Shown here one piece after another: positions 2,247 to 23,704 of a DNA stretch of 64,000 bases. The notes below the pieces were generated by a model that searched no databases, was not told the origin of the DNA, and saw nothing but the letters and a program-made list of their open reading frames with translations. The translations under genes were made by a program, and so were the position numbers. Numbering within the stretch: position 1 is the first letter of the stretch; every line of letters starts with the position of its first letter. This stretch comes from Methanothrix harundinacea 6Ac (GTDB lineage Archaea; Halobacteriota; Methanosarcinia; Methanotrichales; Methanotrichaceae), in NCBI RefSeq assembly GCF_000235565.1, contig NC_017527.1, forward strand, positions 1,984,001-2,048,000. The letters run 5' to 3'.

Positions 2247-3154
2247 ATGGAGAGGACGAAGAGATATGTCACGGAGCTGATCCTGGGCGCCAAAGGTGAG
2301 GCGCCCGCGGCTCCCAAAGGGACGAATCCCATCTTCGACCAGATGAGGGGGATTGACTGGCCGATAAGATGTACCGTGGGGCCTGGCCTTGAAGGGGCGA
2401 TAGCCTGCAAGAGCCGGGTGGGCTTCGTCAACGGCTCTGAAGGCACCCTCATCTACCGCGGCTACGACATCTTCGATCTCTGCGCCCACTCCACCTTCGA
2501 GGAGGTCTCCTACCTCCTCCTCTACGGCGACCTCCCGACGGAGAGCGAGCTAGCCTCCTTCGAGAGCCGACTGAATGAATACCGCTTCCTTCCCAACACC
2601 CTCCGGACGCTGATGAACGCCCCGGTGGAGAGGATGAACCCCATGGCAGCCCTGAGGCTGGGGACGAACTTGATGCATCAGAGGCAGACCTGGCGGGACA
2701 GCGAGGACGCGAGGCCATCCCTGGAGGACGCCATAGCCTCCGACGAGGACTCGATCCCCATGGAGACCCGGCCGACAGGGGAGAGGCATGCGATATACGA
2801 GTTCCAGAGGCGGCACCTCCGACGGCCTACAGACCCGAGACTGGCCCCCGACGACGCCGAGAGCATGGATAGCTGTATCCACCTGATCGCAGGGATGGCG
2901 ACCCTGGCGGCCGCCATCGGTCGGCTGAGGAGGGGCCGCCTGCCCATCGAGCCCGATCCAGAGCTCGGCCACGCCGCGAACCTCCTCTACATGATGACGG
3001 GGCGAAGGCCGACGCCGGTGGAGGAGAGGGTGATGGACGTCTCCCTCATCCTCCACGCCGACCACGGGATGAACGCCAGCACCTTCGCCTGTCTTGTCGT
3101 CGCCTCCACCATGTCAGACATCTACTTCTCCGTCGATGCGGGGATAGGGGCGCT
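2247..3154 (+). pseudogene. gltA: Citrate synthase, 5' part (interrupted by IS66 element)
   Basis: This encodes the N-terminal 302 codons of a citrate synthase (oxaloacetate + acetyl-CoA to citrate, feeding 2-oxoglutarate and glutamate synthesis). Family hallmarks include GFVNGSEGTLIYRGYDI and HADHGMNASTF. Position 3154 is the last genomic base before an insertion sequence; translation then runs into the element and stops at 3197 after 14 foreign residues. All three catalytic residues lie in the other fragment, so this piece cannot be active. Joining bases 2247-3154 to 4589-5081 restores one frame of 466 residues with IGALNGPLHGGANE exactly reconstructed. The protein carries an extra segment of roughly 50 residues (about residues 150-200), rich in acidic and basic residues, compared with usual ~375-residue prokaryotic enzymes. 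Confidence 0.92.
3147..3154. repeat. Target-site duplication, left copy
   Basis: GGGGCGCT, identical to 4581-4588 on the other side of the element. An 8-base duplication is what IS66-family transposition makes. Confidence 0.93.
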
Positions 3155-4580
3155 GTATGTGTTTAGCTCCATCCTCAATTCATGCGAATTGACCTAGAAT
3201 CCACCTCGACCAGAAAAATTATATAATTCTTTCGCTATACCTGCTAGTTGGGAGTATGCACGAAGAAGAGATAATCAAGCAACTTAAAGCTGAGAATGAA
3301 CGATTAAAGCGTGAGAATGAGTTTCAAAGAGAACAGATAGCGAAGCTTGAAGCTCGACTAGCTAAATATGAGAATGCCCATACTCCGCCGAGCTTGAGAC
3401 GAGGTCGCAAACGGAAAAAAGGGTATGACGAAGGGTTTAATGGGAAACCAGGCCAAAAAGAGGGTCATAAAGGGGTATCAAGACCTCGTGCCAATCCTGA
3501 TAGACAAGTCGAAGTCGCCATAGATCTTTGCCCAGATTGCGGAGCCAAGCTTGGCGATCCTATCAGAAAAGAGTCAAAGATCATCGAGGAAATCCCTGAA
3601 CCCCAGCCGATAATCGTCACCGAATACAAGATTGCTCATTACAGATGTCCATCTTGTCAAAAGGAAGTTGTAGCCAGCGATCATGATCTTCCTGCAGAAG
3701 GCAGATTCGGAAACAATGTAATTGCGCAGACAACGTTACTGAAATACGAGGATAGGCTACCCCACAGGAAGATCCAAAATGCACTGAAGCGATTGCATGG
3801 ACTGACCATATGCGCAGCTACGGTCCTCGATCTGACTCGCAGAGCTGCTGATGCGGTTCAGTCTCAATATGATGCAATTTTAAACAGCGTTCGGAATGCA
3901 CCAATCCTGTATGTGGATGAAACGTCGATAAAGGTCCAAGGAGAGCGTCACTGGATCTGGGTATTTACCACACCATCTGAGACGTTTGTTGTGATACGAA
4001 AGAGTCGTGGGATGAAGGTCCTGATGGAAGTTCTGACAAGAAGATTCGATGGCATCATAGTGTGCGATGGTTGGAAGCCTTATGCCAAATTCACAAAACG
4101 GTTACAGCGATGTTGGGCACATCTACTCCGAGAATCAAAGGACCTTGCTGATAAGATTGAGGAGGCGGTTCCTTTACATGGGGATCTCAAGGATCTATAT
4201 GAAGAACTTACTGATGCTCTAGAAAACGATCCACCACCCGAAGTCAGGATGGGATTGTTGGAAATGGCACGATCAAAGCTCCACCAATGGATTATGAAAG
4301 AATACATGAGTGAGAAAGTCAAAAAGCTAATCGGCAAAATTAGTAACGGCTTCGAGTACTGGTTCACGTTTATCATCCAGCCCGCCGTAGAGCCGACCAA
4401 TAATAGAGCAGAGAGGGCTCTCCGGGAGCATGTCGTTCTGAGAAAGATCATTGGTACACTGCGAAATGAAAAAGGGACTTCGATTCATGAACGAATTATG
4501 ACCGTGCTGGCGACATGGGAGCAAAATGGACTCGATGGCCTAAAGATGCTAAGATCGAGCCTGGTCAGCTAAACACGTAC
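3155..4580 (+). mobile_element. IS66-family insertion sequence (single-transposase type), 1426 bp
   Basis: Terminal inverted repeats are GTATGTGTTTAGCT at 3155-3168 and the reverse complement GTACGTGTTTAGCT at 4567-4580, 13 of 14 bases matching and beginning with GTA as is usual for IS66 ends. Perfect 8-base duplications (GGGGCGCT) flank it. There is only a TnpC-type transposase and no TnpA or TnpB, resembling the compact ISBst12-like branch. It sits inside citrate synthase, and nothing around the junctions has decayed, so the insertion is very recent. Confidence 0.93.
3256..4572 (+). CDS. tnpC: IS66-family transposase (TnpC type)
   Basis: 438 residues, full length for the family. An N-terminal coiled coil (residues 1-45) precedes a basic TPPSLRRGRKRKKG stretch, then a zinc-binding CPDCGAK...CPSCQ segment (about residues 92-135). 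The DDE catalytic triad is visible: Asp in LYVDETS near residue 220, Asp in VCDGWKPY near 271, and Glu in NNRAERALREH near 384. A TATA-like box (attatataat, 3218-3227) 29-38 bases before the ATG suggests a short or absent leader. The stop codon lies inside the right inverted repeat. Its base composition is more AT-rich than the interrupted host gene. Confidence 0.95.
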   Translation: MHEEEIIKQLKAENERLKRENEFQREQIAKLEARLAKYENAHTPPSLRRGRKRKKGYDEGFNGKPGQKEGHKGVSRPRANPDRQVEVAIDLCPDCGAKLGDPIRKESKIIEEIPEPQPIIVTEYKIAHYRCPSCQKEVVASDHDLPAEGRFGNNVIAQTTLLKYEDRLPHRKIQNALKRLHGLTICAATVLDLTRRAADAVQSQYDAILNSVRNAPILYVDETSIKVQGERHWIWVFTTPSETFVVIRKSRGMKVLMEVLTRRFDGIIVCDGWKPYAKFTKRLQRCWAHLLRESKDLADKIEEAVPLHGDLKDLYEELTDALENDPPPEVRMGLLEMARSKLHQWIMKEYMSEKVKKLIGKISNGFEYWFTFIIQPAVEPTNNRAERALREHVVLRKIIGTLRNEKGTSIHERIMTVLATWEQNGLDGLKMLRSSLVS

Positions 4581-4588
4581 GGGGCGCT
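4581..4588. repeat. Target-site duplication, right copy
   Basis: GGGGCGCT, identical to 3147-3154; marks the right junction of the IS66 element. Confidence 0.93.
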
Positions 4589-5081
4589 GAACGGCCCCCT
4601 CCACGGCGGAGCTAACGAGGAGGTAACGAGGGTCCTCCGGGAGATCGGCTCCCCGGAAGGGGTGAAAGAGTGGTACAACACGGCCCGAAGTTCGGGGCGG
4701 AAGGTCCCGGGATTCGGCCACCGGGTCTACAGGACCTACGACCCTCGGGCCCGGGTCCTCGGACCCCTGGCGGGGATGATGGCGGAGTCAAACCCCAACT
4801 GCGATAAGATGTATTCGATCGCAAAGCGGCTGGAGGAGGAGGTCGTCTCGGACCTGGGGATGGAGAAGAAGATCTTCCCGAACGTCGACTACTACTCCGG
4901 CATCGTCTACCACGCCATGGGGGTCCCCGGCGACCTCTACACCGTCCTCTTCGCCGTCAGCCGGGTGGCGGGGTGGACCGCGAGGGTGATGGAGTACCTC
5001 GAGAACAACCGGATCTTCAGGCCCCGGTCCCTCTACGTCGGGGAGTTCGACCGGGAGTACGTACCGCTGGAGAACCGATAG
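4589..5081 (+). pseudogene. gltA: Citrate synthase, 3' part (catalytic residues)
   Basis: This is the C-terminal 164 codons of the interrupted citrate synthase. It carries GPLHGGANEE and GFGHRVYRTYD, with the two catalytic histidines, and NVDYYSG with the catalytic aspartate. An open frame could begin at an ATG inside the transposase gene (4515) and read through the element end into this fragment, giving a 188-residue product. That product lacks the N-terminal large domain and most of the dimer surface, so activity is unlikely. The frame rejoins the 5' part exactly if the element and one target copy are removed. Confidence 0.92.
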
Positions 5082-5132: not shown

Positions 5133-5160
5133 GATGGGGGCTTTGAAATCCGCCCCCATC
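5133..5160. terminator. Inverted repeat between convergent genes
   Basis: GATGGGGGC (5133-5141) and GCCCCCATC (5152-5160) form a perfect 9-base stem with a 10-base loop. It lies between the convergent citrate synthase 3' fragment and alkylsulfatase gene. A role in ending transcription is inferred from position. Confidence 0.45.
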
Positions 5161-6910
5161 ACTTGAATAGGTCCATGAACCCGTAGAACTCCTCCGGCCC
5201 GGCTCCGCCCACCTCGACGGCTCCGCCGGCGACCGCCTCCTCAGGGTTGAGCTTTCCCAGGACCAGGTTCTTCATCGAGAGGGAGTCGGTGTCGATGGTG
5301 AACTTCGGGTCCTCGGGGACCCCCTCCTGGACCTCTACGATCCCCCTCCGGACGTACAGGGCATATTCTGCAGATTCCGAATCGTCCGAGAGGCTGAGGC
5401 CGACGGCGTACTCCTCGTCCAGGGCCTTGGTGGCGTTGAGGCTCACCGCCATGATCCTGAATATCGTCGCCATCGGCATGTAGACGACGATATTCTCGTC
5501 CATGAGGCTGAAGCCGCGTTCGATGGGGATCCTGATCTGGCCCGTCTCTTCGAGGTACTCGGAGAGGATGTAGTTTCTCACCTGGGCGTTCTTGGTCTCC
5601 TCGGCCAGGTATAGCATCGACGAGTTCTTGACCTCTCGGGCCTCGACGTTCTCAGGATCGAGGAGGAGGACGTGGTCGGAGAAGATCATCGCCCATTTAA
5701 CATCACCTTCATCGAGAGACGCTTTCGCTTTTTCTGCCAGCCCGTCGACGCCGCCGGCGAGGTATGCCATCTTCTCAGCCTCTTCCCGCGGAGATGTCGG
5801 GAATATGTCTCTGCTCCTGCCCGTGAACCATCCCATGTACTGCTGGAATATCTGGAAAATGTCCCGATCCATCTCGCCGAAGTACTCCTGCAGATTGGGG
5901 TCTTCGGCTAGGTGGGGAGGCAGCTCGAGGACCTCAATGATCTCGCCGGGGGTCAGCCCCTGGTTCATCAGGCGGACCGTCTGGTCGTGGACGTACTGGA
6001 GGGCGTCCCGGGCGTTGGTGAGGGTCTGGCTGATGTTTTCGGCGCCGACGATTGGTCCACCGCCGCTGTGGATCAGGACCATATACTCGGCGTCCAGGGT
6101 CCTCATATCGTCAATGCTCGCGATGTAGTTCAATGGGTCCCGATGCGAAGCTCCCCGGAGGGTGTTGATGGCGGGGAAGGACTTGTAGAAGATGCCGATC
6201 TGAACGATCACCTTCTTATCCGGCAGCCAGACGTAGTTTATATCCGTCGTCTCGGCGGGGGCGTGGACTATCGTCAGGTTCACCCCGGCTATGTTAGTCT
6301 CCAGCCTCTCCCCAACGGTCAGGGTGGGGGGGAGGTATCCCGAGGGGCCGGGGACCGAGAAGGGGAAGATTCCACCATTTACAAAGTAGCCCGGATCGTT
6401 CTGGAAGCGTATCCCAGCATACTTTACGGCCCGGTATACCTTGATAGGGAAGATCTGGCTCACCACTTCCCTGGGCCCGAAGAGGTGCTCCTCAAAGGTC
6501 TCGTGGGCGATGACCTCCGGAGAATCGTTTCCCGCAAAGACCGAAGCTCCGTTTATGTGGCAGTCGTGGTGGTGGGTGTAGATGATCGCCTTGACGGGCT
6601 TTCTCGAGAATATGTCGTCGAGATGCTCGTTGTAAGCCGCCTTCACCATCTCTGCGGAGGTGGTGCTCTCGCCCGGATCGATGACGATCAGCCCGTCGGT
6701 CCCCTCTATCAGGACCGGGTTTGCGCGACCGTAGCCGACGGCGACGTAAACCCCATCCGTCACGTCGTATACGGTGGGTGGAAACCATCCCGCGTTGAGG
6801 GCGACGAGGTCGGGGTTTGCGCCGACCGCCTCAGGCTCGAAGGCCGATGCCGACGATAACCAGAAGAACAACAATAAAATTATCGCCTTGAAAAATTTTC
6901 CAGCATTCAT
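5159..6910 (-). CDS. Secreted alkylsulfatase-like metallo-beta-lactamase protein
   Basis: 583 residues from the ATG at 6910, chosen because it starts a good signal peptide (MNAGKFFKAIILLLFFWLSSASA) and has GGGAG 9-10 bases upstream; an upstream ATG at 6988 is less likely. The architecture matches SdsA1/BDS1-type alkylsulfatases: a metallo-beta-lactamase domain (about 40-310), the alkylsulfatase dimerisation region (LTNARDALQYVHDQTVRLMN, GLTPGEI, YMGWFTGRSRDIFP) and a C-terminal SCP2-like domain (about 460-583). Such enzymes release sulfate from alkyl sulfates using two zinc ions. Here the usual H-x-H-x-D-H reads HHHDCH: Cys sits at the Asp ligand position, and Asp is one residue earlier. The acidic ligand normally found before the SFPxxxTLRG stretch also appears lost. 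Substrate is therefore uncertain. Confidence 0.85.
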   Translation of the reverse strand: MNAGKFFKAIILLLFFWLSSASAFEPEAVGANPDLVALNAGWFPPTVYDVTDGVYVAVGYGRANPVLIEGTDGLIVIDPGESTTSAEMVKAAYNEHLDDIFSRKPVKAIIYTHHHDCHINGASVFAGNDSPEVIAHETFEEHLFGPREVVSQIFPIKVYRAVKYAGIRFQNDPGYFVNGGIFPFSVPGPSGYLPPTLTVGERLETNIAGVNLTIVHAPAETTDINYVWLPDKKVIVQIGIFYKSFPAINTLRGASHRDPLNYIASIDDMRTLDAEYMVLIHSGGGPIVGAENISQTLTNARDALQYVHDQTVRLMNQGLTPGEIIEVLELPPHLAEDPNLQEYFGEMDRDIFQIFQQYMGWFTGRSRDIFPTSPREEAEKMAYLAGGVDGLAEKAKASLDEGDVKWAMIFSDHVLLLDPENVEAREVKNSSMLYLAEETKNAQVRNYILSEYLEETGQIRIPIERGFSLMDENIVVYMPMATIFRIMAVSLNATKALDEEYAVGLSLSDDSESAEYALYVRRGIVEVQEGVPEDPKFTIDTDSLSMKNLVLGKLNPEEAVAGGAVEVGGAGPEEFYGFMDLFK

Positions 6911-7131
6911 ATTTTTGCTCCCATTCGTTATATTTCGTCTCATCAAATTGCTCTCCGGCGAAGATAAGGAGGATGCTGGGTTCAGCATACCGATTCTGTC
7001 ACCGAGATTTTTTACATCCTGCGGAAGCCGAGAGCTAATTTACAGGACGATGGTAAATGTATGGCGATAGCATCCGATAAAAGCTTTTTGTCGAGCTGGA
7101 GCCCTCGGAAAAAGGAGGAGGCAGCCTGCCC

Positions 7132-8262
7132 CTAAAAAATATATTTCCAATCTTCCTTCATGCTCACCACCTCCCAACCCCACTCTCCCGCCAGCTCCAG
7201 CCCCTCCTCCAGCCCTCCGATGGAGGAGCCTATATCGTAGGCGTACTCCCGGATGGGGTCGTCGTGGTGGTTCAAGAGGCCCAGGGATGGACCCTCGCCC
7301 CCAGTGGCGAATTTGAGCATGGGGATATCCCCATCCGAGTTGCCGTAGGCGAGGATGGGGCGAAGGCCTACGATCTGCTGGATCTGCTCCGCCTTCACCC
7401 GGCCGTCGGTGACGACCTGGACCTCAGGAAGCTTCACCACTGAGGTGTTGCCGTCGACTTCGATGAACTGGTGCTTGACCGCCGAACCGATCACCTGCTC
7501 CGGGGGGATGCCGTACACCTCCTGGGAGAAGGCCCGGACGAAGTCCTGATCTCCCCCCGTCACTATGTAGACCTTGAACCCCTGGGATCTCAGATAGCTG
7601 AGGAGCTCCAGCATCGGCTTATAGACGCATTCTGTATAGGGGAGGCCATGGTCCGGATGGGAGGATCTATCGAGCCAGTCTCTTGCGAGAGCCATGTACT
7701 CCTCAGCGGTCATATTCGAGCTGGTGGCGACGTAGATCTCCAGCACCTCCCCCGGGCTGAAGCTGCCGGCCCCGGTCCGCTCGCCAGAGAGGATGGAGCT
7801 GAAAGGCTCGGTGGAGTTCCACTCGGGGTGATATGATGCCATATCATAGACCCGGTCGAAGATGAAGAGATACGGGACGTAATTTGGATACTCGCACCAG
7901 AGAGTCCCGTCGTTGTCGAAGGTGGCGATCCTATCTTCGGGGGCTACGTAGTTCGGACCGCCCTCGGAGGTGACATCTGAAACGAAACTGAGGATGGCCC
8001 TCTTTGCCGACCCCTCGTTCCAGGAGGGGAGGGGGTCCACATCTCCCCGGGCAGCCGACCCCTCCCCAATCCCATAGAGTTTTTGATTTGGCGGCAGGGA
8101 TGAACCGAGGTCCAGCGAGTCAGCTCTAATCCACAGTCCTCCAAATCCCCCCTCAAACCGCATCTCCGCGGTCGCTCCTCCCGATCGCATCTCCCCAGCC
8201 CCCACTGATGACGACCCCATCAAAGATATCATGAGGGCGATCATGATGGCCATCTTATTCAT
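7132..8262 (-). CDS. Secreted HAD-superfamily hydrolase
   Basis: 376 residues from the ATG at 8262, which has a strong GGAGGT 8 bases upstream; a further upstream ATG (8310) lacks one. The N-terminus MNKMAIMIALMISLMGSSSVGAG is a signal peptide. HAD motifs are present: DNDGTLWCEY (nucleophile Asp, about residue 105), VTGGDQDF (motif II) and YGNSDGDIPML (motif IV). The Asp-Asn-Asp order is D-x-D, consistent with phosphatase chemistry, and the fold resembles the phosphoserine-phosphatase branch. An exported HAD phosphatase beside an exported alkylsulfatase-like protein suggests work on extracellular esters; this is inference. It lies 221 bases upstream of the alkylsulfatase, both on the minus strand, with separate ribosome sites. 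Confidence 0.82.
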   Translation of the reverse strand: MNKMAIMIALMISLMGSSSVGAGEMRSGGATAEMRFEGGFGGLWIRADSLDLGSSLPPNQKLYGIGEGSAARGDVDPLPSWNEGSAKRAILSFVSDVTSEGGPNYVAPEDRIATFDNDGTLWCEYPNYVPYLFIFDRVYDMASYHPEWNSTEPFSSILSGERTGAGSFSPGEVLEIYVATSSNMTAEEYMALARDWLDRSSHPDHGLPYTECVYKPMLELLSYLRSQGFKVYIVTGGDQDFVRAFSQEVYGIPPEQVIGSAVKHQFIEVDGNTSVVKLPEVQVVTDGRVKAEQIQQIVGLRPILAYGNSDGDIPMLKFATGGEGPSLGLLNHHDDPIREYAYDIGSSIGGLEEGLELAGEWGWEVVSMKEDWKYIF

Positions 8263-8332
8263 CCCGCGCGACCTCCTTCTCCATTGTTTATTTACATGAA
8301 TGAGGAACATCTTCCCAACCCAACGGCGACAT

Positions 8333-9514
8333 TTAATGCCCCTTCTCCAGCTTCTGGATCTCTTCTTCGCCTTTGGCCGCCAGCTCCTTGAACTGATTTA
8401 TGGTATCCCGCATTATGGGCAGAGCCTCCTGCTTATAGGTGCTGATGGATTCGAGGGCCTCCATCACATCGGCGAAGGCGGCCTTCATCCCCTCGACGGA
8501 GATGCTGGTCGCCATTGATCGCCTCTGGATCTCCGCCCCCTGATCCTTCAGCATCTGAGATGTGCCCCTGATGATGCCGTTCGTCGTATCATTGAGCATT
8601 TCGATCTTCTTCAGGGCGACCTTCTGATGATAGAGGGCGCCGGCCACCGTCACCGAGGTTCTCAAAGCCGATATGGTCACCGTTTTGGCCCTATCCACCC
8701 CGCGGATCAGCTCCCGGTTATTTCTGATCACAACCTCCATCGCCATTACGCCCTGCTGATTTACCACCACCATCTGCTCCATATCCATAATCCGCTGCCG
8801 CAGAGGAAAGAGGATCTCTTCAGCGACAAATCTGACTTTCTCCGGATCTTCGTTCCTGGCTTTTGCCGCCTCTATCTCCATCTCGATCGATCTGTCCATC
8901 AGAATCCCGAGCTGGATCTCTTTCATCAGCTTCTTGGTCAGACTCCGCAGTGCCTGCTGCTCGATCTCGAGAGTGGTGTTGTCGTTTCTCAGGATCGCCT
9001 TCCCTCTCTCCAGCGAGGCGATGATGTCCGCAATGGCCGAATCTGCCTTCTGGTATCGTGCAAAATAGGCCCTCACCGGATCGAAGACCTTCCCCAAAAT
9101 TCCCGTCTTGGTGAAGTCGATGAGGCTGGGGTCCAGGTCTCTCAGCTCCCGGTTCAGCTCCATCAAGCCCCTCGCCACCACGCCGCCTTCATCGCCGTCT
9201 CTGGCCAGGTTGCCGACGGTCACCTGCAAAAGTGAGTTCTTGGCGGCCGAGGTCGCCATCGACTCGCCGCCAAAGGACTCGATCGACTGGAGGATATGCA
9301 TCTTTTTGGGAGCCACATCGAGATCCAGGGTCAGAATTTGCGCGACGTTCTTCTCCGCCAGAGCCTGAAGCTCGCCCACCTCCTCCGGGGCCGGCTCGAC
9401 CTGTTCCTGCACCTCCTTCTTGATCGCCGCTTCATCAGGAATATCCATGGTGAAAGGTTCCTGGACCCTATCTTCCATAGCCGCCTCATCGGCCACTTTC
9501 ATCGCTAATGGCAT
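8333..9514 (-). CDS. telA: TelA-family (toxic anion resistance) protein
   Basis: 393 residues, typical for TelA (PF05816). A charged N-terminal tail of about 45 residues precedes the helical core, recognisable by IDFTKTGILGKVFDPVRAYF, KADSAIADIIASLERGK, and the C-terminal VTVAGALYHQKVALKKIEML. No signal peptide or membrane span is visible, so it is likely cytoplasmic or membrane-peripheral. TelA proteins are linked to tellurite, colicin and envelope stress and co-occur with vWA proteins and TerD-type modules, but the biochemical activity is not settled. Here it is the last gene of a three-gene minus-strand operon, 16 bases after the vWA gene. GGTGA precedes the start. Confidence 0.9.
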   Translation of the reverse strand: MPLAMKVADEAAMEDRVQEPFTMDIPDEAAIKKEVQEQVEPAPEEVGELQALAEKNVAQILTLDLDVAPKKMHILQSIESFGGESMATSAAKNSLLQVTVGNLARDGDEGGVVARGLMELNRELRDLDPSLIDFTKTGILGKVFDPVRAYFARYQKADSAIADIIASLERGKAILRNDNTTLEIEQQALRSLTKKLMKEIQLGILMDRSIEMEIEAAKARNEDPEKVRFVAEEILFPLRQRIMDMEQMVVVNQQGVMAMEVVIRNNRELIRGVDRAKTVTISALRTSVTVAGALYHQKVALKKIEMLNDTTNGIIRGTSQMLKDQGAEIQRRSMATSISVEGMKAAFADVMEALESISTYKQEALPIMRDTINQFKELAAKGEEEIQKLEKGH

Positions 9515-9530
9515 CTGCTCTTCACCCGTG

Positions 9531-11192
9531 CTACAGCTCAGCGTTGAACAGCTGGCTCAGCTTATAAATCACGTCTTCGGTATCGGCGTTGATGCTCGCA
9601 GCCTCATTGATGTTAGATATGGCATTCAGGGCCTTGATATTCGCATTGTAGCCGATTGTGTATATGGGTATTCCAAGATCCTCCACGATATCTCTAATAT
9701 CGTTCAGGGAATGGCCTTTGTTGGTTTCACCGTCGCTGAGGACGAAGATCCTCGGTTTGAGGTTTGGATCTTTATCGGGGCCTGCAGCCTTCTGATCTAT
9801 GAGCATCTTCATGGCGACAGCTATCGCATCGAAGGTCGCTGTTCCGCCGCCGGCCTGTAGCTCATCGACCGCTCCGACGAAAGAAGCTCTCTGCTTCAGA
9901 TCGAATTTGGAGATAGGCAGATCTATGTTGACATCATTGGAATACGATACCAGGCCGATCAAATTGTTCTCGCCGATATAGTATTGACCATCAATCAATG
10001 AGCGCTTCAGATTATTCAGCGGCCTGCCTTCCATGCTGCCGGAGACATCGACCACAAAGACTGCACAATTATGTCTACCAGTGTCTTTTCTATCTTTCCA
10101 GACCTTTTGAGCCTGAATTATAACACCGTCGCTGACCAGTACAGCTTCAGATTGATATTCTTCGAAGCCGTTGAAACCATATTTAGCTGCCAGGTTCTGA
10201 TACTTCTCCTGTTGGGAGAACTTGACGAACTCGTTCAGGATCCTACTTTCCTCTCCCGACAGCTCGCCGATCGCATAAATCGGATTGTCATGCCTCACCC
10301 CAAAGGGGGTGAAATTGTAGTGCCTGATATCCGGATCGTTCAAATATGTCTGGTATTCCAGGACGAAGCCTTCGAGAAATCCCGATTTGGCAGCATCCCT
10401 CATCTGCAGAGTGGTATAGGCGACGAGGGGGATATTGGCCTGGAAGCTCTCAAACCCTGCGACGGCTTTATCGCTCAGTAAGTCGCTTTTGTCGAAGGCG
10501 TATAAAGTCGAGATCAGGAAGTTCAGCCCGGTGGAGCTGGCAAGGGGATTGGTGTAGCCTATCGCCAGTTCCTGGTTCGCGACTGCATCTACGATTGTCT
10601 TGGTATTTATCGCCCCATATTTGCGCTCCAGCTCGTCTTTCTTGGACTTCGTGAGGAGGATCCCGGCCACGTTGCCGACAAGCCTTCCTTCCACCAGCTC
10701 GGCGTCGACCCCTTTGGAGATGATCATCTCGCCCCAGAAGTCATTCGACGGCGTATAGGCTTCTGGCATATACTTGCCGGAAGTGATATAATCGGCGCCT
10801 AAACCGGAGGGGATAGCTCTGAGCCTTACAGATACCGGCTTGCCGTCTATCTTTATTCCTGCATTGTTGAAGTCTTCTGCGACCTCTGTCAGCCAGCCGT
10901 CGGTGCCGGAGCCGGCTTTCTCTGGTGAGGAAAATATTTCGATGTAGTTGGATGTGATTTTTTCTACCTGCGGCGGGTACTTGGAGATATCGGGCAAGGT
11001 GTTGTTCAGGTCTGGGGGGAGAAACTCGATATGGCCCATAGGATGTTTCACTTGATTCACATCGACGTCCTCGATGATGGACTCCAGCGTCATTTCTGAT
11101 GGCGGGACGATCACCAAATATACCAAGATAAATACTCCAACTGATGCTGCCAATATCTTCCAAATTACTTTTCTGTCGGCATCTTTGAGCAT
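9531..11192 (-). CDS. Membrane-anchored substrate-binding / vWA fusion protein
   Basis: 553 residues. An uncleaved N-terminal membrane anchor (about 11-30, KILAASVGVFILVYLVIVPP) is followed by a periplasmic-binding-protein-like region (about 80-345, with EIFSSPEK, ELAIGYTNPLASSTGLNFL and TPFGVRHDNPIYAIG) and a C-terminal vWA domain. The vWA metal site is complete: FVVDVSGSMEG near residue 380, GGGTATFDAIAV and FVLSDGETNKG. The fold order suggests a sensor that binds a solute outside the cell and presents a vWA surface. It sits between an anchored coiled-coil protein and telA with gaps of only 15 and 16 bases, so all three are probably one transcript and one complex. Confidence 0.85.
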   Translation of the reverse strand: MLKDADRKVIWKILAASVGVFILVYLVIVPPSEMTLESIIEDVDVNQVKHPMGHIEFLPPDLNNTLPDISKYPPQVEKITSNYIEIFSSPEKAGSGTDGWLTEVAEDFNNAGIKIDGKPVSVRLRAIPSGLGADYITSGKYMPEAYTPSNDFWGEMIISKGVDAELVEGRLVGNVAGILLTKSKKDELERKYGAINTKTIVDAVANQELAIGYTNPLASSTGLNFLISTLYAFDKSDLLSDKAVAGFESFQANIPLVAYTTLQMRDAAKSGFLEGFVLEYQTYLNDPDIRHYNFTPFGVRHDNPIYAIGELSGEESRILNEFVKFSQQEKYQNLAAKYGFNGFEEYQSEAVLVSDGVIIQAQKVWKDRKDTGRHNCAVFVVDVSGSMEGRPLNNLKRSLIDGQYYIGENNLIGLVSYSNDVNIDLPISKFDLKQRASFVGAVDELQAGGGTATFDAIAVAMKMLIDQKAAGPDKDPNLKPRIFVLSDGETNKGHSLNDIRDIVEDLGIPIYTIGYNANIKALNAISNINEAASINADTEDVIYKLSQLFNAEL

Positions 11193-11207
11193 GCTGATTT
11201 TTCCTCC

Positions 11208-11939
11208 TCAATTCTTATAGTTTGTCGTCTGCTTGATCAGGTTATCGATCTCGACCATCCCGGGCATCTTCTCCAGCTGGCCGCTCTCCACGCTGTTCAG
11301 CCCCGAGAGCTCCAGAAGGAGCTTGTCAAGCTTCAGCAGGATCGCCTCATTATCTTCGGCGGCCTCCTTTACAAAAGTAATATATTTGTTATAAACTTCG
11401 ATCTTTTCATCCATGAACTGCTCGGAAAAGTCTCCAGAATTGCTTTTGTTTCTGATGAAATTATAGTCTTCTTCATCAAAAGCATCCAATTTATTAATTA
11501 TGCTACGCATATTCATGAAGAATATCCTCTCCACCTCTGAGATGACGCCGTCAAATTTCTGGTAGCTGATCTCAGAGGAGCTGAAGATCTGCAGAAGGAT
11601 CTCCCGGATTATCTTATTCTTCTTCTGCAGCCGATCGATCTGATCAAGCATCAGGTCGATGGTTTTTTCGAATGTTTTCAGCTCTCTCCGGTCTTTCAGC
11701 GCATCAATATAATCCTCCACCGTCATGATCTTTTGAGCTGGAGTTCCCCTCTCATCAGGCTCGGCGAGGAGCCTGTAGTTCCCGTAGATCAACCCGGCGC
11801 CGCTCAAGAAGATGAAGGCGATGCCAAAGGCCGTTGCCGGTGCAACGCCCAAGACGAAGACCTCCGGCAAGACGATTATGTTGGCTGCGGCGATCCCGAG
11901 ATTCAGGCCCAGGAGTTTGATCTGCTTCTCTCTTTCCAT
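11208..11939 (-). CDS. Two-span membrane protein with coiled coil, TelA partner (XpaC-like?)
   Basis: 243 residues. Residues 8-60 form two hydrophobic segments (LGIAAANIIVLPEVFVLGV and FGIAFIFLSGAGLIYGNYRL). The rest is helical and charged, with predicted coiled coil (IDLMLDQIDRLQKKNKIIREIL). In bacteria telA homologues are often paired with XpaC-family proteins, which also have an N-terminal membrane hairpin and helical cytoplasmic tail; the resemblance here is in layout, not in a motif I can certify. It is the first gene of the telA operon, so it may anchor TelA at the membrane. Confidence 0.6.
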   Translation of the reverse strand: MEREKQIKLLGLNLGIAAANIIVLPEVFVLGVAPATAFGIAFIFLSGAGLIYGNYRLLAEPDERGTPAQKIMTVEDYIDALKDRRELKTFEKTIDLMLDQIDRLQKKNKIIREILLQIFSSSEISYQKFDGVISEVERIFFMNMRSIINKLDAFDEEDYNFIRNKSNSGDFSEQFMDEKIEVYNKYITFVKEAAEDNEAILLKLDKLLLELSGLNSVESGQLEKMPGMVEIDNLIKQTTNYKN

Positions 11940-12638: not shown

Positions 12639-15194
12639 ACGCGTAGAAGGGATTTTACCAGTGCATTGACTGTTTTTATTATATTGTTCCTTTCCGGGAC
12701 GACGTTTGCTGCGTCGGAAGAAGAATATGAAGGTTTCGAGACGAAAACGCCTCTACTATCCGCTGAGTCCGATGACCAAGCCGATGGCGCCCTGAGCAGA
12801 TCCAGCAATGAACAATTGACGAACAGAAGAAAGGTTCTGGCCAGGGACGCCGACCTGGAATCGGTGGCCGAAGAGGACGTCGTCGCACCCCGGGGGGAGC
12901 CCCGCCTCGTGGTCATGGCTGCCGGTGCCAGCGTCCGAGAGGATGAGGGCGGCCAAGAGGGCACAAGAACCGCCGCAGATCTCATCCAGGCAGAATCGGG
13001 TTCAATTTCGACCTCCGGCTGCGAGCCTGTCATCGGCATCTCCTATCGGGACTCGACCCCCTGCACCGCGGAAGTGGCGCAGCCACCAAAAGAAGCTCCC
13101 AACGTCGTCTTCATCGTCCTGGACGACGTGGGATTCGGCCAGATAGGCTGCTTCGGCGGCCCCATCGATACCCCCAACATCGATCGGCTGGCGGTTGGTG
13201 GACTTCGATACAACAACTTCCACACCACCGCCATGTGCTCTCCGACGAGGGCCTGCCTCTTGACGGGGAGAAACCACCACTCCGTCGGAGTAGGGGCGGT
13301 CATCGAGCTGCCCGCGGGCTACCCCGGCTACAGCATGACCCTCTCTAAGAACGCGGCCACATTGCCGGAGATCCTGCTTGAAAGCGGCTTCAACACCTTT
13401 GCCGTGGGCAAATGGCACCTCTCAGATCACCTGAACGCAGCAGGGCCCTTCGATAACTGGCCGACGGGCAGGGGCTTTGAAAAATACTACGGGTTCATCG
13501 GGTCTGAGACCAACCAATGGTATCCTGATCTGGTCAGTGGCACCACCAGGGTCGATCCTCCCAAAACCCCCGAGGAGGGGTATCACATCTCCGAGGACCT
13601 GGTGGACCGGGCCATAGGGTTTATAAAGAGTCAGCAGGCCGCAGAGCCGGGCCATCCCTACTTCCTCTACCTATCCTTCGGAGCCTGCCATGCTCCCCAT
13701 CACGCTCCCAAAGAGCAGATAGATATGTACAAGGGTAGGTTCGATCAGGGCTGGGATGAGGTCAGGAACGAAACCCTGGCGCGGCAGAAGGCGATGGGAA
13801 TTGTCCCCGAAGATGCAGAGCTTCCGCCGAGGAACCCGGATATCCCCGCCTGGGTGGATCTGAGCGAAGATCAGCAGAGGGTCTTTGCGAGGGAGCAGGA
13901 GGTCTACGCAGGATTTTTGACCCACACCGACGCCCAGATCGGGAGGTTTTTGGACCATCTCGAAGATATGGGCCAGCTGAACGACACCTTGATCGTCCTC
14001 ATATCGGACAACGGCGCCAGCCGGGAGGGCGGATTCAACGGTACCTCGAACAACTACCTCTACTTCAACCGCATCATTCAGAACGTGACCTCCGTCCTCG
14101 CCCATATCGACGAGCTCGGGGGAACAGAGACCTGGAACCACTACGCCGAGGGATGGGCGATGGCCGGGAACACCCCCTTCAAAAGGTACAAGCAGAACAC
14201 CCATGAGGGCGGGATCCACGACCCCATGATCATCTACTACCCGGCGCTGATAGAGGACGGGGGCAGGATAAGGGAGCAGTACACCCACGCCGTAGACATC
14301 GTCCCCACGGTCCTGGAGCTCCTGGGCCTCTCGGCGCCCGAGGTCTACAACGGCCATCCCCAGAAGCCGATCGAAGGGGTGAGCTTTGCCGCAAGCCTCT
14401 CAGACCCGGATGCGGAGACGGGCAAGTACGTCCAGTACTATGAGATGGTCGGCAGCAGGGCCCTCTGGTACAACGGCTGGAAGGCCACCGCTTACCATAC
14501 GCCAGAGTCCGGCGGCGACTTCATGAACGACACCTGGGAGCTTTACAACACCGACGAGGACTTCTCCGAGGTCCACGACCTGGCCTCCGAATATCCCCAG
14601 AAGCTCCAGGAGATGATAGACCTCTGGTTCTTTGAGGCCGGAAAGTACCAAGTCCTGCCTCTGGACGACCGCCAGAAGGCCAGGTTCCAGCCGGCCCCAA
14701 AAACCGGCGTCTTCACCTACTATCCCGGAACGGAGAAGATCCTCGAGCCGGAGCTGCCCGACACATTGAACCACTCCTACAGGATTGCGGCCTACGTGGA
14801 CATTCCAGAATCGGGCGCCGAGGGAGTTCTCTTCTCCATAGGCGGCCGTTTCGGCGGCCTATCGCTATTCGTCATGGATGGCCATCTCGTCTGCGACTAC
14901 AATTTCGTGGGAATGAGACATTATACTGTATCGTCGACTTCTGAGGTCCCAGCCGGTCGCTCCGCTCTATCCATGGCCTTCGACCTGACGGGAAGCCACC
15001 AGGGCGTCTGTACTCTCTACATAGACGGCCAGGCCAGAGGCCGCGCCGAGGTGATGATACAGCCGTACCGCTACTCCTTCGAGGAGGGGCTTGAGATCGG
15101 CAAGGACCCCCAGACCCCGGTGAGCGAGAGCTACGAGAGCCCCTTCCGGTTCACAGGGACCATCGAGAAGGTGGTAATGGAGGTCGAGGGTTAG
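12639..15194 (+). CDS. Secreted Cys-type sulfatase with C-terminal beta domain
   Basis: About 850 residues. The formylglycine motif CSPTRACLLTGR (Cys near residue 200) marks a type I sulfatase needing Cys-to-formylglycine maturation; metal and sulfate residues are seen in VFIVLDDVGFGQIG, VGKWHLSD and LISDNGASREGG. A hydrophobic leader (LTVFIILFLSGTTFA) indicates export. A C-terminal all-beta-looking region (about 700-850) resembles accessory domains of large arylsulfatases. Start: no ATG or GTG is available. A GGAGGT at 12627 points to 12639, where the codon is ACG and translation would include the basic residues TRRR that a signal peptide wants. The only standard alternative is a TTG at 12666, which has no ribosome site and removes those residues. 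Residues 50-90 share a TNRRxVLA...EDV segment with the next sulfatase. Confidence 0.85.
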   Translation, partial: TRRRDFTSALTVFIILFLSGTTFAASEEEYEGFETKTPLLSAESDDQADGALSRSSNEQLTNRRKVLARDADLESVAEEDVVAPRGEPRLVVMAAGASVREDEGGQEGTRTAADLIQAESGSISTSGCEPVIGISYRDSTPCTAEVAQPPKEAPNVVFIVLDDVGFGQIGCFGGPIDTPNIDRLAVGGLRYNNFHTTAMCSPTRACLLTGRNHHSVGVGAVIELPAGYPGYSMTLSKNAATLPEILLESGFNTFAVGKWHLSDHLNAAGPFDNWPTGRGFEKYYGFIGSETNQWYPDLVSGTTRVDPPKTPEEGYHISEDLVDRAIGFIKSQQAAEPGHPYFLYLSFGACHAPHHAPKEQIDMYKGRFDQGWDEVRNETLARQKAMGIVPEDAELPPRNPDIPAWVDLSEDQQRVFAREQEVYAGFLTHTDAQIGRFLDHLEDMGQLNDTLIVLISDNGASREGGFNGTSNNYLYFNRIIQNVTSVLAHIDELGGTETWNHYAEGWAMAGNTPFKRYKQNTHEGGIHDPMIIYYPALIEDGGRIREQYTHAVDIVPTVLELLGLSAPEVYNGHPQKPIEGVSFAASLSDPDAETGKYVQYYEMVGSRALWYNGWKATAYHTPESGGDFMNDTWELYNTDEDFSEVHDLASEYPQKLQEMIDLWFFEAGKYQVLPLDDRQKARFQPAPKTGVFTYYPGTEKILEPELPDTLNHSYRIAAYVDIPESGAEGVLFSIGGRFGGLSLFVMDGHLVCDYNFVGMRHYTVSSTSEVPAGRSALSMAFDLTGSHQGVCTLYIDGQARGRAEVMIQPYRYSFEEGLEIGKDPQTPVSESYESPFRFTGTIEKVVMEVEG

Positions 15195-15375
15195 GAGCGA
15201 TGCAAGTAGACGATGCGGGAGATCCTGGGATGAATGGGACGAAAGAATGGCTCGTCGGGATCCTGGGTTCGGCCAGGATTCCGATATATCTTTTTAAGAT
15301 TTCGACCGCCCTTTCGGCTTGATGAGACGGCCCTATTCTATTCAATCCATCCGATGTTTGTCTCAAGAAAAAATA

Positions 15376-15385
15376 GTTATATAGG
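15376..15385 (+). promoter_or_regulatory. TATA box of second sulfatase gene
   Basis: gttatatagg, centred about 25 bases before the GGAGGAG ribosome site at 15407; predicts a leader of about 15 bases before the start at 15419. Confidence 0.55.
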
Positions 15386-15418
15386 AAAAAAAACATTAAT
15401 CAAATCGGAGGAGTCTGT

Positions 15419-17047
15419 ATCAAAATTGGGCTTCTAATCAAATTGGCTATAGCGGCATTTTTTCTTATCTCAATTGCCGCAGGCGGCCTCGATTCTGCAA
15501 ACACTGGACTGTCCGTCATTCCGTTGGATCTGAAAGCAGGCGGCTTCGGCAATAGTGGGAGAAGCGACGATCACGCCGAGACGCCAGAAGATATCGGAGC
15601 AGACGTTGTAACGAACAGGAGGAACGTTCTCGCAAATAACTCCAGCCTTCATCAGGCGATGCACGAGGACGTGGCCCCGGCCCCAAGGCCGAACATCGTG
15701 ATCATGCTCGCCGACAACATGGGGTACATGGACCCCGGCTGCTACGGCGGCGGGGCTGTATTGGGCGCTCCGACCCCCAGGATGGACCAGATGGCAAAAG
15801 AGGGCCTGAGGCTGACATCCTTCTACTCAGAGACCCAGTGCACCCCCACTCGGGCGGCGATGCTGACGGGAAGGCTGCCGATCAGGACGGGGATGGCTCT
15901 CGCCTCGGAGACGGGCTCCAATGCGGGGATATCTCCCGAAGAGAGGACCCTGGCGAGGGTGCTCTCCGATGCCGGCTATAATACAGCCATCTTCGGCAAG
16001 TGGCATCTCGGGGACATCCGCGAGAGCGAGCCTCAGAATATGGGATTCGACGAGTTCTTCGGGCTGTTATATCACCTCAACTCCTATACTCAGAGCGAGC
16101 GGATCGGCTTCGATCCTCGCTGGGAGGCGGGAGAGCCCCTGGGACTGGTGGAGGCCAAGAAAGGCGAGAACCTCACCGAAGTCTCGCCCCTGAATGTGAG
16201 CTCTCTCGCATATGTCGATGAGCAGTCGATGGAGAGGGCGCTTGCCTACATCAAGAGCCAGTCCAGCTCCGCCGACCCCTTCTTCGTATACATCCCCTTC
16301 GTCCGGACCCACTTCCCCAGCGTTCAAAACCCGAGATGGGCGGGGAAGTCGAGCAAAGGTCCGTACGGCGACGGGCTTATGGAGATGGACCATCACGTCG
16401 GCATGGTTCTTGACACCCTCAAAGAGCTGGGGATCGAGAATAACACCATCGTCGTTCTGACGAGCGACAACGGACCGACCCTCGACCAGTGGCCGGACTC
16501 GGGCTTCTCTCCGTTCCGGGGAGGGATAGGCACCACTTATGAGGGAGGCGTCCGCGTCCCTTGCATCTTCTGGTGGCCTGGAATGATAGAAGCCGGTAGA
16601 TCGTCCGACGAGATCATCTGCACCCTGGACCTCTTCACCACCCTGGCCGTCCTCGGCGGCGGGGAGGTTCCCGCCGACAGGCCCATCGACGGCATCGACC
16701 AGTCGGAGTTCATCCTGGGTAGACAGGAGAACTCAAACCGTGAATGGGTGGTCTGGTACATCGGAACTGGGAGTGCGGCCAACACCATCCCCGCGGCGGT
16801 CCGCTGGCATCAGTTCAAGGTTCACACCAGAGCGTATGACTCCTTCCAGGGGCCCGAGAGCTATTACGGCCAGATCCCCGCCGTCTACAACATCGAGATG
16901 GACCCAAGAGAGGAGCATAACATCGCCGGGGAGCACGATTTCGTCATCAGCGCCTTCACCAAGATCTATCGAGGGCTTGTGGCCAGCATGATCGAGTATC
17001 CGAATACGCCTTCGAGGGCGTATCCAATCTCGGCGGGAGCGAGCTGA
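15419..17047 (+). CDS. Secreted Cys-type sulfatase
   Basis: About 542 residues, the usual size for an arylsulfatase. The motif CTPTRAAMLTGR (Cys near residue 141) is the formylglycine site; NIVIMLADNMGYMDPG, FGKWHLGD and VLTSDNGPT provide calcium- and sulfate-binding residues. The N-terminus (KIGLLIKLAIAAFFLISIAAGG) is a good signal peptide. Start: GGAGGAG at 15407 with TATA box upstream places the first codon at ATC 15419, followed by AAA, so the chain would begin (Met)-Lys-Ile-Gly. The first standard codon in frame is TTG 15443, which has no ribosome site and deletes both lysines of the signal peptide. Co-located with another sulfatase and a maturase, so it is likely matured by the 18935 enzyme. 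Substrate is unknown. Confidence 0.87.
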   Translation: MKIGLLIKLAIAAFFLISIAAGGLDSANTGLSVIPLDLKAGGFGNSGRSDDHAETPEDIGADVVTNRRNVLANNSSLHQAMHEDVAPAPRPNIVIMLADNMGYMDPGCYGGGAVLGAPTPRMDQMAKEGLRLTSFYSETQCTPTRAAMLTGRLPIRTGMALASETGSNAGISPEERTLARVLSDAGYNTAIFGKWHLGDIRESEPQNMGFDEFFGLLYHLNSYTQSERIGFDPRWEAGEPLGLVEAKKGENLTEVSPLNVSSLAYVDEQSMERALAYIKSQSSSADPFFVYIPFVRTHFPSVQNPRWAGKSSKGPYGDGLMEMDHHVGMVLDTLKELGIENNTIVVLTSDNGPTLDQWPDSGFSPFRGGIGTTYEGGVRVPCIFWWPGMIEAGRSSDEIICTLDLFTTLAVLGGGEVPADRPIDGIDQSEFILGRQENSNREWVVWYIGTGSAANTIPAAVRWHQFKVHTRAYDSFQGPESYYGQIPAVYNIEMDPREEHNIAGEHDFVISAFTKIYRGLVASMIEYPNTPSRAYPISAGAS

Positions 17048-18934: not shown

Positions 18935-20311
18935 ATGAGCAAGAAGGGCCCACTTCCCGGCTTTCATCTCATGGCCAAGCCCACGGGGGCGATCTGCAAT
19001 CTGGGATGCAGATACTGCTTCTTCCTCTCCAAGAAGAACCTCTACCCTGATGGCAGCTTCCGGATGTCCGACGAGGTTCTGGAGAGCTACATCCGCCAGT
19101 ACATAGAGGCCCAGAAGAACCCCTCCGTCACCGTCGCCTGGCAGGGGGGAGAGCCGACTCTGATGGGCCTCGAGTTCTTCAGGCGTTCCATCGAGGTCGA
19201 GGAGAAGTATCGGCAGCCGGGAATTTCGTTTCAGAACACCATGCAGACCAACGGCATCCTCCTCGACGACGAATGGTGCGAGTTCTTCTCTGAGAACGAC
19301 TTTCTCATCGGCCTCAGCCTCGACGGGCCTCGGGAGCTCCACGACGCCTACCGGGTGGATAAGGCCGGCGGGCCCACCTTCGACCGGGTGATGAGGGCTG
19401 CCCGTCTCCTCCGGAAGCACCGGGTCGAGTTCAACATCCTCGCCACCGTCCACGCCGCCAACCAGGACCACCCCCTGGATGTCTACCGATTCCTTCGAGA
19501 CGAGGTGAAGACCGACTTCATCCAGTTCATACCGATAGTGGAGAGAAAGAACGATACGGGGTTTCAGGAAGGGGATAGGGTCACCGACCGATCGGTGGAC
19601 CCCGAGAGGTACGGCCGATTTCTCATCTCCATCTTCGACGAGTGGGTCAGAAGAGACGTGGGAAAGACCTTCGTCCAGATCTTCGACGTCGCCCTGGCAG
19701 CCTGGTCGGGGGCTCCGCCAGGGATATGCGCCTTCTCGGAGACCTGCGGGACGGCGATGGTGATGGAGCACAACGGCGACGTCTACTCCTGCGACCACTT
19801 TGTAGAGCCGAAGTACCTGCTGGGAAACATCCACGAGAGGCCCCTCGCTTCGATCGCCGGCTCAGCAAAGCAGCGAAGGTTCGGCCGCGAGAAGCTCGAC
19901 CTCCTCCCCGAATACTGCCGCAGGTGCGAGGTGAGGTTCGTCTGCAACGGAGAGTGTCCCAAGAACCGGTTCATCAAAACGCCCGACGGCGAGCCGGGCC
20001 TCAACTATCTCTGTGCCGGCTATAAGGAGTTCTTCAGGCACATCGACGGCTCGATGCGGTTCATGGCGAGCGAGCTGCGGTGCGGCCGCAGTCCTGCCAA
20101 CATCATGAGCTATACGGGATCTCAAGAGGGAAAGGTGGTCAGAGCATTTTTGAGGCCGGGTCGAAACGACCCCTGCCCCTGCGGAAGCGGGCTGAAGTTC
20201 AAGAAGTGTCATGGCAGAGTCGACCATCAAAGGGACGAGCCTCCCGCCGAGGAGGCGCTGTCGAAGAAGATCGGGGACCGTTGCAGGAAGCTCTCCGACC
20301 TGCTTAAGTGA
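18935..20311 (+). CDS. Anaerobic sulfatase-maturating enzyme (radical SAM, SPASM)
   Basis: 458 residues. The radical-SAM motif CNLGCRYC (Cys21, 25, 28) is followed by [12 protein letters not shown] and the typical anSME core. The SPASM part shows cysteines in [36 protein letters not shown] for two auxiliary clusters. A SEC-C zinc motif ([17 protein letters not shown]) forms an extra C-terminal tail near residues 405-425. These enzymes oxidise the Cys of CxPxR sulfatase motifs to formylglycine without oxygen, matching the two Cys-type sulfatases just upstream. The ATG at 18935 gives the normal family N-terminus. A dead fragment of a second copy remains at 12335. Confidence 0.93.
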
Positions 20312-20478
20312 AGATTGCAGGAAGTTATCTCGCCTGCCTAAGGGGAGGTCAAAGATCTTCATCGGACCTTTCCGAGGCGGATCTCGTCGAGATGAACGAA
20401 TTGCTGGTCCCTTGCCGCCTCTGGATAGCTGCCGCCAGTTGTACGATAATTTAAATAGAATGATATTATCTAATTATT

Positions 20479-21602: not shown

Positions 21603-21689
21603 GAATACTCTATAGATTGCTTTATAAAAGTATTAAATATAAATCCAAACCAAACCTCTGCATTAATCGGTGTTGGCTATCTTCTGTAT

Positions 21690-23099: not shown

Positions 23100-23242
23100 G
23101 CTGTAATATATTCGATTATCTGATAAAAATAAAAATTGCCTAAGCCGGTCGCCGCCCCCCTTTTCCATCCTCCTCCCCCAGTTCGCTATTGCGATCACTT
23201 CGCCCCGGAAGTCTTCGGATGATTCTTGTTTACAAATACGAA

Positions 23243-23254
23243 AATAATTATATC
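23243..23254 (+). promoter_or_regulatory. TATA box of VapB-like antitoxin
   Basis: aaataattatat is centred about 28 bases before the ATG at 23277, which predicts a leaderless message. Confidence 0.45.
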
Positions 23255-23276
23255 CTCAATAAACAACAGGAATATC

Positions 23277-23507
23277 ATGTCTACAGGAAGCGTGGTATTC
23301 AGCGTCAGGATCCCTCAGGATCTGAGGAGGATGATGGAGGAGATGAAGGAGGTGAACTGGCAGGAGGAGATAAGGATGAAGATCGAGGAGCTGGTGAGGG
23401 AGAAGAACAGGGAGAGGATCCTCGCCGAGGCAAGATCGGTGAGGGCTGAGATGAAGGGCGGGGGGAGAGCCTCAGAGCTGATCAGGGCGGATCGAGATGA
23501 GAGGTAG
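23277..23507 (+). CDS. VapB-like ribbon-helix-helix antitoxin, orphan
   Basis: 76 residues. The start SVVFSVRIPQDLRRMMEEM is a ribbon-helix-helix DNA-binding strand and helix, and the middle (VNWQEEIRMKIEELVREKNRERILAEA) matches archaeal VapB antitoxins. The C-terminal tail (RASELIRADRDER) is the usual toxin-binding end. No PIN-domain VapC follows: the 197 bases to the hsdR stop hold no reading frame with PIN acidic residues. It may have lost its toxin or act on one elsewhere. A leaderless promoter fits the ATG at 23277. Confidence 0.7.
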   Translation: MSTGSVVFSVRIPQDLRRMMEEMKEVNWQEEIRMKIEELVREKNRERILAEARSVRAEMKGGGRASELIRADRDER

Positions 23508-23704
23508 GGCGCCATACTATGAAGGAAAATAAGCACGATAATTCGTAGATCGATCTAACCGAGTGTAAATTAGTATATTAATAAGTAATCACGTACCAAT
23601 TTACGAGAGTAATCGAGAATGCTTCGGAGGAGGAAAACCTAAAGAATGTGGGAGCAATCGAGCCTCCTAATAGTGAAGCCTTGATCGATTAGACTCCGGG
23701 CGCT

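Follow-up and report, generated by a model that had tools for sequence, protein, structure and literature searches.

A conserved TelA operon with a solute-binding/vWA fusion in Methanothrix harundinacea 6Ac: a candidate trans-envelope sensor and scaffold

We analyzed a stretch of 64,000 nucleotides from Methanothrix harundinacea 6Ac (NC_017527.1:1,984,001-2,048,000; “the window”, whose positions serve as coordinates below) that carries three adjacent genes: a membrane coiled-coil protein (gene 1), a fusion of a solute-binding domain with a vWA domain (gene 2, “the fusion”), and TelA (gene 3). The gene order, domains, conservation and co-occurrence of this trio are established by the comparisons reported here. 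Judged from the sequences, the trio appears to be a genuine, conserved and modular unit, and its most likely, predicted function is that of a trans-envelope sensor and scaffold for envelope stress.

The linkage of the genes was counted in 392 genomes of the same phylum as the window. TelA occurs above the Pfam cut-off in six of them, and exactly these six possess a close relative of the fusion: near full length with at least 69% identity in the window genome (G000), G157, G275, G375 and G380, and over residues 320-553 with 70% identity in G299. Independent draws would give this six-by-six overlap with a probability of 2e-13, a value that kinship among the genomes renders far less extreme. At E 0.001 the fusion matched 52 of the 392 genomes, but 46 of these align from residue 311 onwards only, with E 4e-12 or weaker (best 4.4e-12, vWA region only), and were taken as other vWA proteins. 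Sub-threshold TelA matches in 11 further genomes are probably coiled-coil noise; as a control, the TelA profile search also found Methanosarcina acetivorans. Five census genomes and three further contigs yield eight complete loci (the window and L033-L039), with L040 of G299 as a ninth, and all eight keep the order gene 1, fusion, TelA. Within the sampled phylum the linkage suggested by an earlier sequence-only reading of this stretch is thus too consistent for chance.

The surroundings of the trio are mostly unlike from locus to locus. Eight tested flank genes of the window had no relative among the 374 open reading frames (ORFs) of L033-L040. Between the other archaeal loci, compared over 3.4-7.3 kb on each side, the flanks are alike in the near-identical pair L033/L034. 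Recurring single genes are an SDH-type (ClpP-like) serine protease near the trio (L033 8933-9805, L034 8902-9795, L038 11220-12083), a NosD-type beta-helix protein downstream of it in L033, L034 and L036, ABC ATPases of L037 and L039 that are related to each other and lie 3-6 kb upstream, and a repetitive short ORF with a weak match between L035 and L037. It is very improbable in our estimate that the three genes are chance neighbors, or separate genes on a common promoter without joint function. Fusion and TelA do occur apart in other lineages, as such a view would have it, yet the constant order in differing surroundings, the exact co-occurrence in the census and the separate TelA-fusion pairings in bacteria already disfavor it.

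The trio is co-directional and runs from 11939 to 8333 on the minus strand, with a gap of 15 bases between gene 1 and the fusion and of 16 bases between the fusion and TelA (Table 1). The archaeal relatives likewise have short gaps and, ahead of the start codons, purine-rich sequence (in the window GAGGAGG and GGGTGA), and the tight three-gene operon proposed earlier was found as described. We rejected a HAD gene downstream of TelA (7132-8310) as a possible fourth member, since it has no relative in L033-L040.

Table 1. Features of the trio in window coordinates.
Feature	Position	Strand	Extent	Basis
Gene 1, two-transmembrane coiled-coil protein	11208..11939	-	243 amino acids	ORF, relatives in L033-L039
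Hydrophobic segments of gene 1 (two)	11805..11921	-	residues 7-25 and 27-45	hydropathy scan
Helical/coiled-coil region of gene 1, presumably cytoplasmic	11220..11729	-	residues 71-240	AlphaFold model
Shine-Dalgarno-like stretch (GAGGAGG) before gene 2	11193..11217	-		
Gene 2, solute-binding/vWA fusion	9531..11192	-	553 amino acids	ORF and Pfam
N-terminal hydrophobic anchor of gene 2 (single)	11100..11156	-	residues 13-31	hydropathy scan
Solute-binding domain (PF13531)	10167..10952	-	residues 81-342	27.7 bits, cut-off 25
vWA domain	9582..10064	-	about residues 377-537	PF00092 at 378-537
MIDAS motif DVSGS	10035..10049	-	residues 382-386	alignment of 16 members
Shine-Dalgarno-like stretch (GGGTGA) before gene 3	9515..9539	-		
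Gene 3, TelA	8333..9514	-	393 amino acids	PF05816 at residues 76-387

The domains of the fusion differ in how readily they are recognized. The vWA part is found by a Pfam scan at E 3e-17 (PF00092, residues 378-537). PF13531 (SBP_bac_11) is not listed up to E 0.1 if the whole window protein is scanned; residues 81-342 scanned alone match it with 27.7 bits (cut-off 25) and E 2.7e-6, covering profile positions 6-226 of 227. In an alignment of 16 archaeal and bacterial fusion relatives, used for residue invariance, 15 members match PF13531 with E values of 1 or lower, the best being 1.3e-21. Whole-protein scans find it in four bacterial fusions at E 1.3e-20 to 1.3e-10 and in the Miltoncostaea fusion at 5.3e-16, and at E 0.01 do not list it for the Sphaerotilus and Stanieria L061 fusions. 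We regard the solute-binding domain as real but remote, as far as these profiles tell. The signature of the metal ion-dependent adhesion site (MIDAS) consists of DxSxS with a Thr and an Asp of the metal site; D382, S384, S386, T451 and D487 are invariant in all 16 members and the site is complete. The binding-protein/vWA fusion of the sequence-only reading thereby stands. A loose lipobox-like pattern in 5 of 10 bacterial relatives suggests that the fusion family is exported.

The membrane coiled-coil protein that the earlier reading saw in gene 1 is confirmed by two N-terminal hydrophobic segments and a predicted helical remainder, for which AlphaFold gives a block with pLDDT 66-95 over residues 71-240 (below 50 for residues 1-70). 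A fold search returned nothing at E 0.001 or better, the best match being 0.078 to generic helical proteins, and a profile search of the PDB found no match at E 0.1. A Pfam match to ALIX-V (E 0.076) was discarded as coiled-coil noise. TelA itself is unambiguous: it scores 250.5 bits with PF05816 (cut-off 30; E 3.1e-74). It has no transmembrane segment in the hydropathy scan; its PDB profile search gave SYNZIP2 at 0.074 only, hence no solved relative by sequence.

The relation between the three proteins was followed across the eight loci. Gene 1 and TelA vary together in their pairwise identities (Spearman rho 0.89), as partners would, and each follows the fusion less closely (0.55 and 0.51); one must keep in mind that the loci are few and related. 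In Methanosphaera a transmembrane protein lies directly before a TelA that is 49% identical to that of the window, and there is no fusion. This transmembrane protein shows a weak hhalign match to gene 1 (37%, E 3.5e-4) with a common K-[IV]-R ... F ... F..V stretch. From these comparisons we take the putative core to be gene 1 plus TelA, with the fusion serving as sensor.

A mechanistic picture arises from the predicted topology. We give about even chances to the proposal that the trio forms one envelope-spanning module with the fusion as outside sensor, gene 1 as bridge and TelA as inside scaffold; topology, contacts, signaling direction and stress role are what we infer here. The fusion would be held by a single transmembrane helix, with its solute-binding and MIDAS vWA domains outside the cell membrane. 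Capture of a ligand, or a change in the envelope, could alter the binding domain, upon which the vWA domain with its divalent cation might grip a partner. The gene 1 protein, with two transmembrane segments and its coiled coil, would relay this change through the membrane to TelA. The latter might act as a submembrane helical scaffold and stabilize the membrane or its transport processes when the cell is stressed. Given the N-terminal anchor of the fusion, its export-like relatives and the lack of a transmembrane segment in TelA, the two proteins are probably located on opposite sides of the membrane. This would make a direct hand-over of ligand to TelA unlikely, and the earlier suggestion that a small molecule is sensed and passed to TelA needs revision in its second half. 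Gene 1 is a plausible bridge between the two sides.

A wider proposal, which we put forward only tentatively, is that a binding protein was recruited here for sensing on the outside and is not part of a transporter. Joined by a vWA domain of the MIDAS type and a transmembrane helical partner, it might form a sensing core common to archaea and bacteria that is fitted to varied cytoplasmic scaffolds, TelA among them. No ABC importer permease or ATPase gene was found among the window neighbors scanned. An ATPase with an adjacent membrane protein lies 2-4 kb upstream in L037 and a related ATPase more than 6 kb upstream in L039, neither being conserved beside the trio. If true, such a core would represent a new class of kinase-free trans-envelope signaling, with the trio of the Methanosarcinia as its simplest TelA-type form. 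Tellurite, bacteriocins and envelope stress have all been connected with TelA, and a conserved operon with an outward-facing binding domain offers a testable input for this protein. One carrier, G380, is presumably Methanosarcina acetivorans, an organism amenable to routine gene removal.

Several observations weigh against the trio acting as one sensor and scaffold unit. TelA operons without the fusion exist in Methanosphaera, Arthrobacter, Curtobacterium and Pseudomonas, and in all seven cases tested a fusion was found without TelA on the same plasmid record (two in Stanieria, and Pseudanabaena, Miltoncostaea, Deinococcus, Streptomyces and Thiodictyon). The association is therefore modular and not obligatory. 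The locus of G299 (L040) is broken: it retains the fusion as a C-terminal fragment and TelA spread over two frames, and gene 1 could not be located, which would make the module dispensable. Gene 1 has no detectable sequence relation to the small transmembrane proteins of the bacterial clusters (hhalign 0.2%), so that calling the latter the same trio rests partly on architecture, which is alike by hydropathy. Finally, the AlphaFold model of the fusion from four sequences has a pLDDT of 33.8, and its fold and site are derived from sequence. Homologous operons lacking the fusion had been named beforehand as a sign of chance adjacency; such operons do exist elsewhere, while in the sampled phylum the pairing is exact.

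The identity of the ligand leads to another explanation, in which the ModA-type domain binds tungstate, molybdate, tellurite or sulfate outside the cell, as sensor or scavenger, and TelA confers resistance inside. PF13531 includes the molybdate-binding ModA, and the binding domain belongs to this family. The top three solved-structure matches of the 16-member profile are sulfate- or molybdate-binding proteins; at E 0.014-0.024 these are not significant, and unrelated ribosomal proteins match the same profile at E 0.027-0.031. A narrower profile of archaeal and cyanobacterial binding domains found Rab proteins only, at E 0.46 or worse, which we dismissed. Invariant in the binding part of all 16 members are E91, P216, F250 and P304. 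In the alignment from the PDB profile search E91 follows the loop which in ModA carries the serine that holds the ligand. At this place an acidic residue would be expected to disfavor a bare anion, and the invariant E91 thus speaks mildly against an oxyanion ligand. In Listeria, PMC12791056 reports a telA mutant with a tellurite sensitivity increased 2-fold only and a nisin sensitivity increased 4-fold, and states that the TelA mechanism is not known. We consider an oxyanion sensor or scavenger unlikely.

The distribution of the trio is patchy. In the family of the window, fusion and TelA occur in 4 of 14 sampled genomes, one of them being the broken copy, and G171, the other sampled genome of its genus, has neither. 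The window fusion is 75% and 73% identical to those of G380 and G157, which belong to another family, compared to 69-72% for G275, G375 and two metagenome-assembled genomes (MAGs) of Methanothrix. Identities and spread would fit sideways movement or frequent loss, and prove neither. In the near-identical MAG loci L033 and L034, TelA (L033/L034 7663-8856) differs at 22% of its residues, the fusion at 2% and gene 1 at 4%, and the ratio of nonsynonymous to synonymous substitution rates (dN/dS) is 0.86 for TelA against 0.31 and 0.30 for the neighboring trio genes. This divergence arose perhaps from recombination.

Patchiness and the divergence of TelA could also be expected of a defense-like module, in which either the outside fusion or TelA would act against phages, plasmids or toxins that attack membranes, in analogy to the Ter/TelA proposal for jumbo phages. 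In PMC7824862, TelA and TerF are described as forming submembrane structures and TelA is proposed to take part in entry-blocking structures of Ter systems. One bacterial locus, in Variovorax, lies beside a Wadjet (JetA-type) system (L070 10493-13446), a few genes from the TelA/fusion cluster. On the other side, strong constraint on TelA is seen in the pair L036/L037 of the Methanosarcina family (dN/dS 0.16). Scanned with PADLOC to E 0.1, the three proteins yielded nothing beyond a weak match of the fusion to TerY (E 0.039), and no defense gene was seen among the scanned flanks of the window (IS66 transposase, split citrate synthase, hydrolases, sulfatases). A role in defense appears quite improbable to us. 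Among viral contigs, 232 pattern stretches contained no relative; TelA matches were seen in Lak phage at about 20% identity.

Bacterial relatives were searched in plasmid records, of which some per genus were examined in detail; Stanieria sp. NIES-3757, two Variovorax, one Curtobacterium and four Vibrio records count as matches without detailed reading. The fusion matched 18 records, with at least 80% coverage in four, all cyanobacterial. TelA relatives occur in 15 records, and in 17 if the Sphaerotilus TelA serves as query. TelA lies beside the fusion in Sphaerotilus (one record, L069), Variovorax (one of three, L070, with an ORF of 46 amino acids in between) and Nonomuraea (one, L066). A split version with a separate vWA protein and an OmpA-linked binding protein occurs in two of six Vibrio records (L068, L075); their TelA operon is long and has several annotated binding proteins together with an ABC permease and ATPase. 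TelA accompanies TerD in two of three Curtobacterium records, and neither TerD nor the fusion in Arthrobacter, Methanosphaera and Pseudomonas.

By profile comparison (hhalign) the archaeal fusion set matches the cyanobacterial one at 100%, the Streptomyces set at 99.6% and the Nonomuraea/Sphaerotilus/Variovorax/Deinococcus set at 98.5% (columns 122-538). For the binding part alone, archaea match cyanobacteria at 100% (E 2e-51), the Streptomyces/Miltoncostaea/Thiodictyon set at 97.9% (E 5e-13) and the Nonomuraea/Sphaerotilus/Variovorax/Deinococcus set weakly (61.6% over 48 columns); the binding parts of the two bacterial sets match each other at 99.7%. The clusters of Variovorax, Sphaerotilus and Nonomuraea resemble the archaeal trio in that one strand carries TelA, a fusion of PF13531 with vWA, and a small protein whose N-terminus has a transmembrane region. 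They differ in their order, which is an extra binding-protein-like gene (360-380 amino acids), TelA, fusion, transmembrane protein. The small transmembrane proteins of Nonomuraea, Sphaerotilus, Variovorax and Deinococcus are interrelated (E 9.1e-10 or better), as are the upstream proteins of 350-380 amino acids, which resemble the binding domain (98%). On these profile matches the trio is, in our reading, an archaeal variant of a recurring arrangement of TelA with an extracytoplasmic binding/vWA protein. SPFH/flotillin genes were found near the fusion in Stanieria L061 and Pseudanabaena L063 by Pfam and in Variovorax L070 by annotation.

Three known systems invite comparison. In the XpaC-YaaN pair of Bacillus and Listeria, YaaN being the TelA, this protein likewise stands beside a partner gene within an envelope-stress regulon; the pair is not known to have an extracellular binding/vWA protein. 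XpaC (PF10112) was found neither in gene 1 at E 0.1 nor at the archaeal trio loci, and two of the six trio genomes give four matches to it with E values up to 1, all below the cut-off. In Ter systems (TerD, TerC, TelA, TerF/TerY vWA) TelA likewise occurs with a vWA protein, and no Ter vWA protein is known to be fused to a solute-binding domain. Membership of the trio in a Ter system was rejected, TerD being present in none of the six trio genomes (control matches in 2 of 14); TerD was the Ter family searched. The kilA operon klaA-klaB(telA)-telB/klaC of IncP plasmids is a three-gene TelA operon as well, and in L076, a klaA-telA-hypothetical set, the third product has several hydrophobic segments. 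No solute-binding or vWA domain was found in this set, and KlaA and the third protein compared with gene 1 and the fusion gave hhalign values of at most 1.3%, a weak test with single sequences. KlaA (L076 3779-4546, upstream of TelA) reaches the TelA profile at 30.1 bits with a cut-off of 30 and may be a TelA relative; against the archaeal TelA set hhalign gave 0.2%. In the literature xpaC-yaaN of B. subtilis is described as part of the core sigma-W regulon (PMC3498285), and the kilA operon is linked to tellurite resistance (PMC12348037).

The earlier reading knew of no description of this trio for methanogens. Among the open-access papers searched, none combines “toxic anion resistance” with “methanogen”, and none of those listed describes such a trio; the main comparative study of Ter systems (Anantharaman 2012) lies outside this set and may mention the pairing. 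In the main text of the M. harundinacea genome paper (PMC3349665) neither “tellur” nor “toxic anion” occurs. The bacterial fusion already bears the NCBI product name “substrate-binding and VWA domain-containing protein”.

Further observations concern the neighborhood. A citrate synthase gene appears split, with an IS66 transposase gene (3256-4572) between its two pieces: the N-terminal one (2247-3197) covers PF00285 positions 1-211, and the C-terminal one (4515-5081) positions 207-357. Two sulfatase genes (PF00884) and an alkyl-sulfatase-type metallo-hydrolase surround the trio (12666-17047, 5159-6988), unusual company in an acetate-using methanogen. A large vWA protein at 1-1794 (PF13519, PF00092) continues beyond the left end of the window and shows a weak TerF-like vWA match below the cut-off. 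The G+C content drops to 0.41 at 20001-24000 compared to 0.51-0.67 in the other 4-kb blocks, which suggests a foreign stretch.

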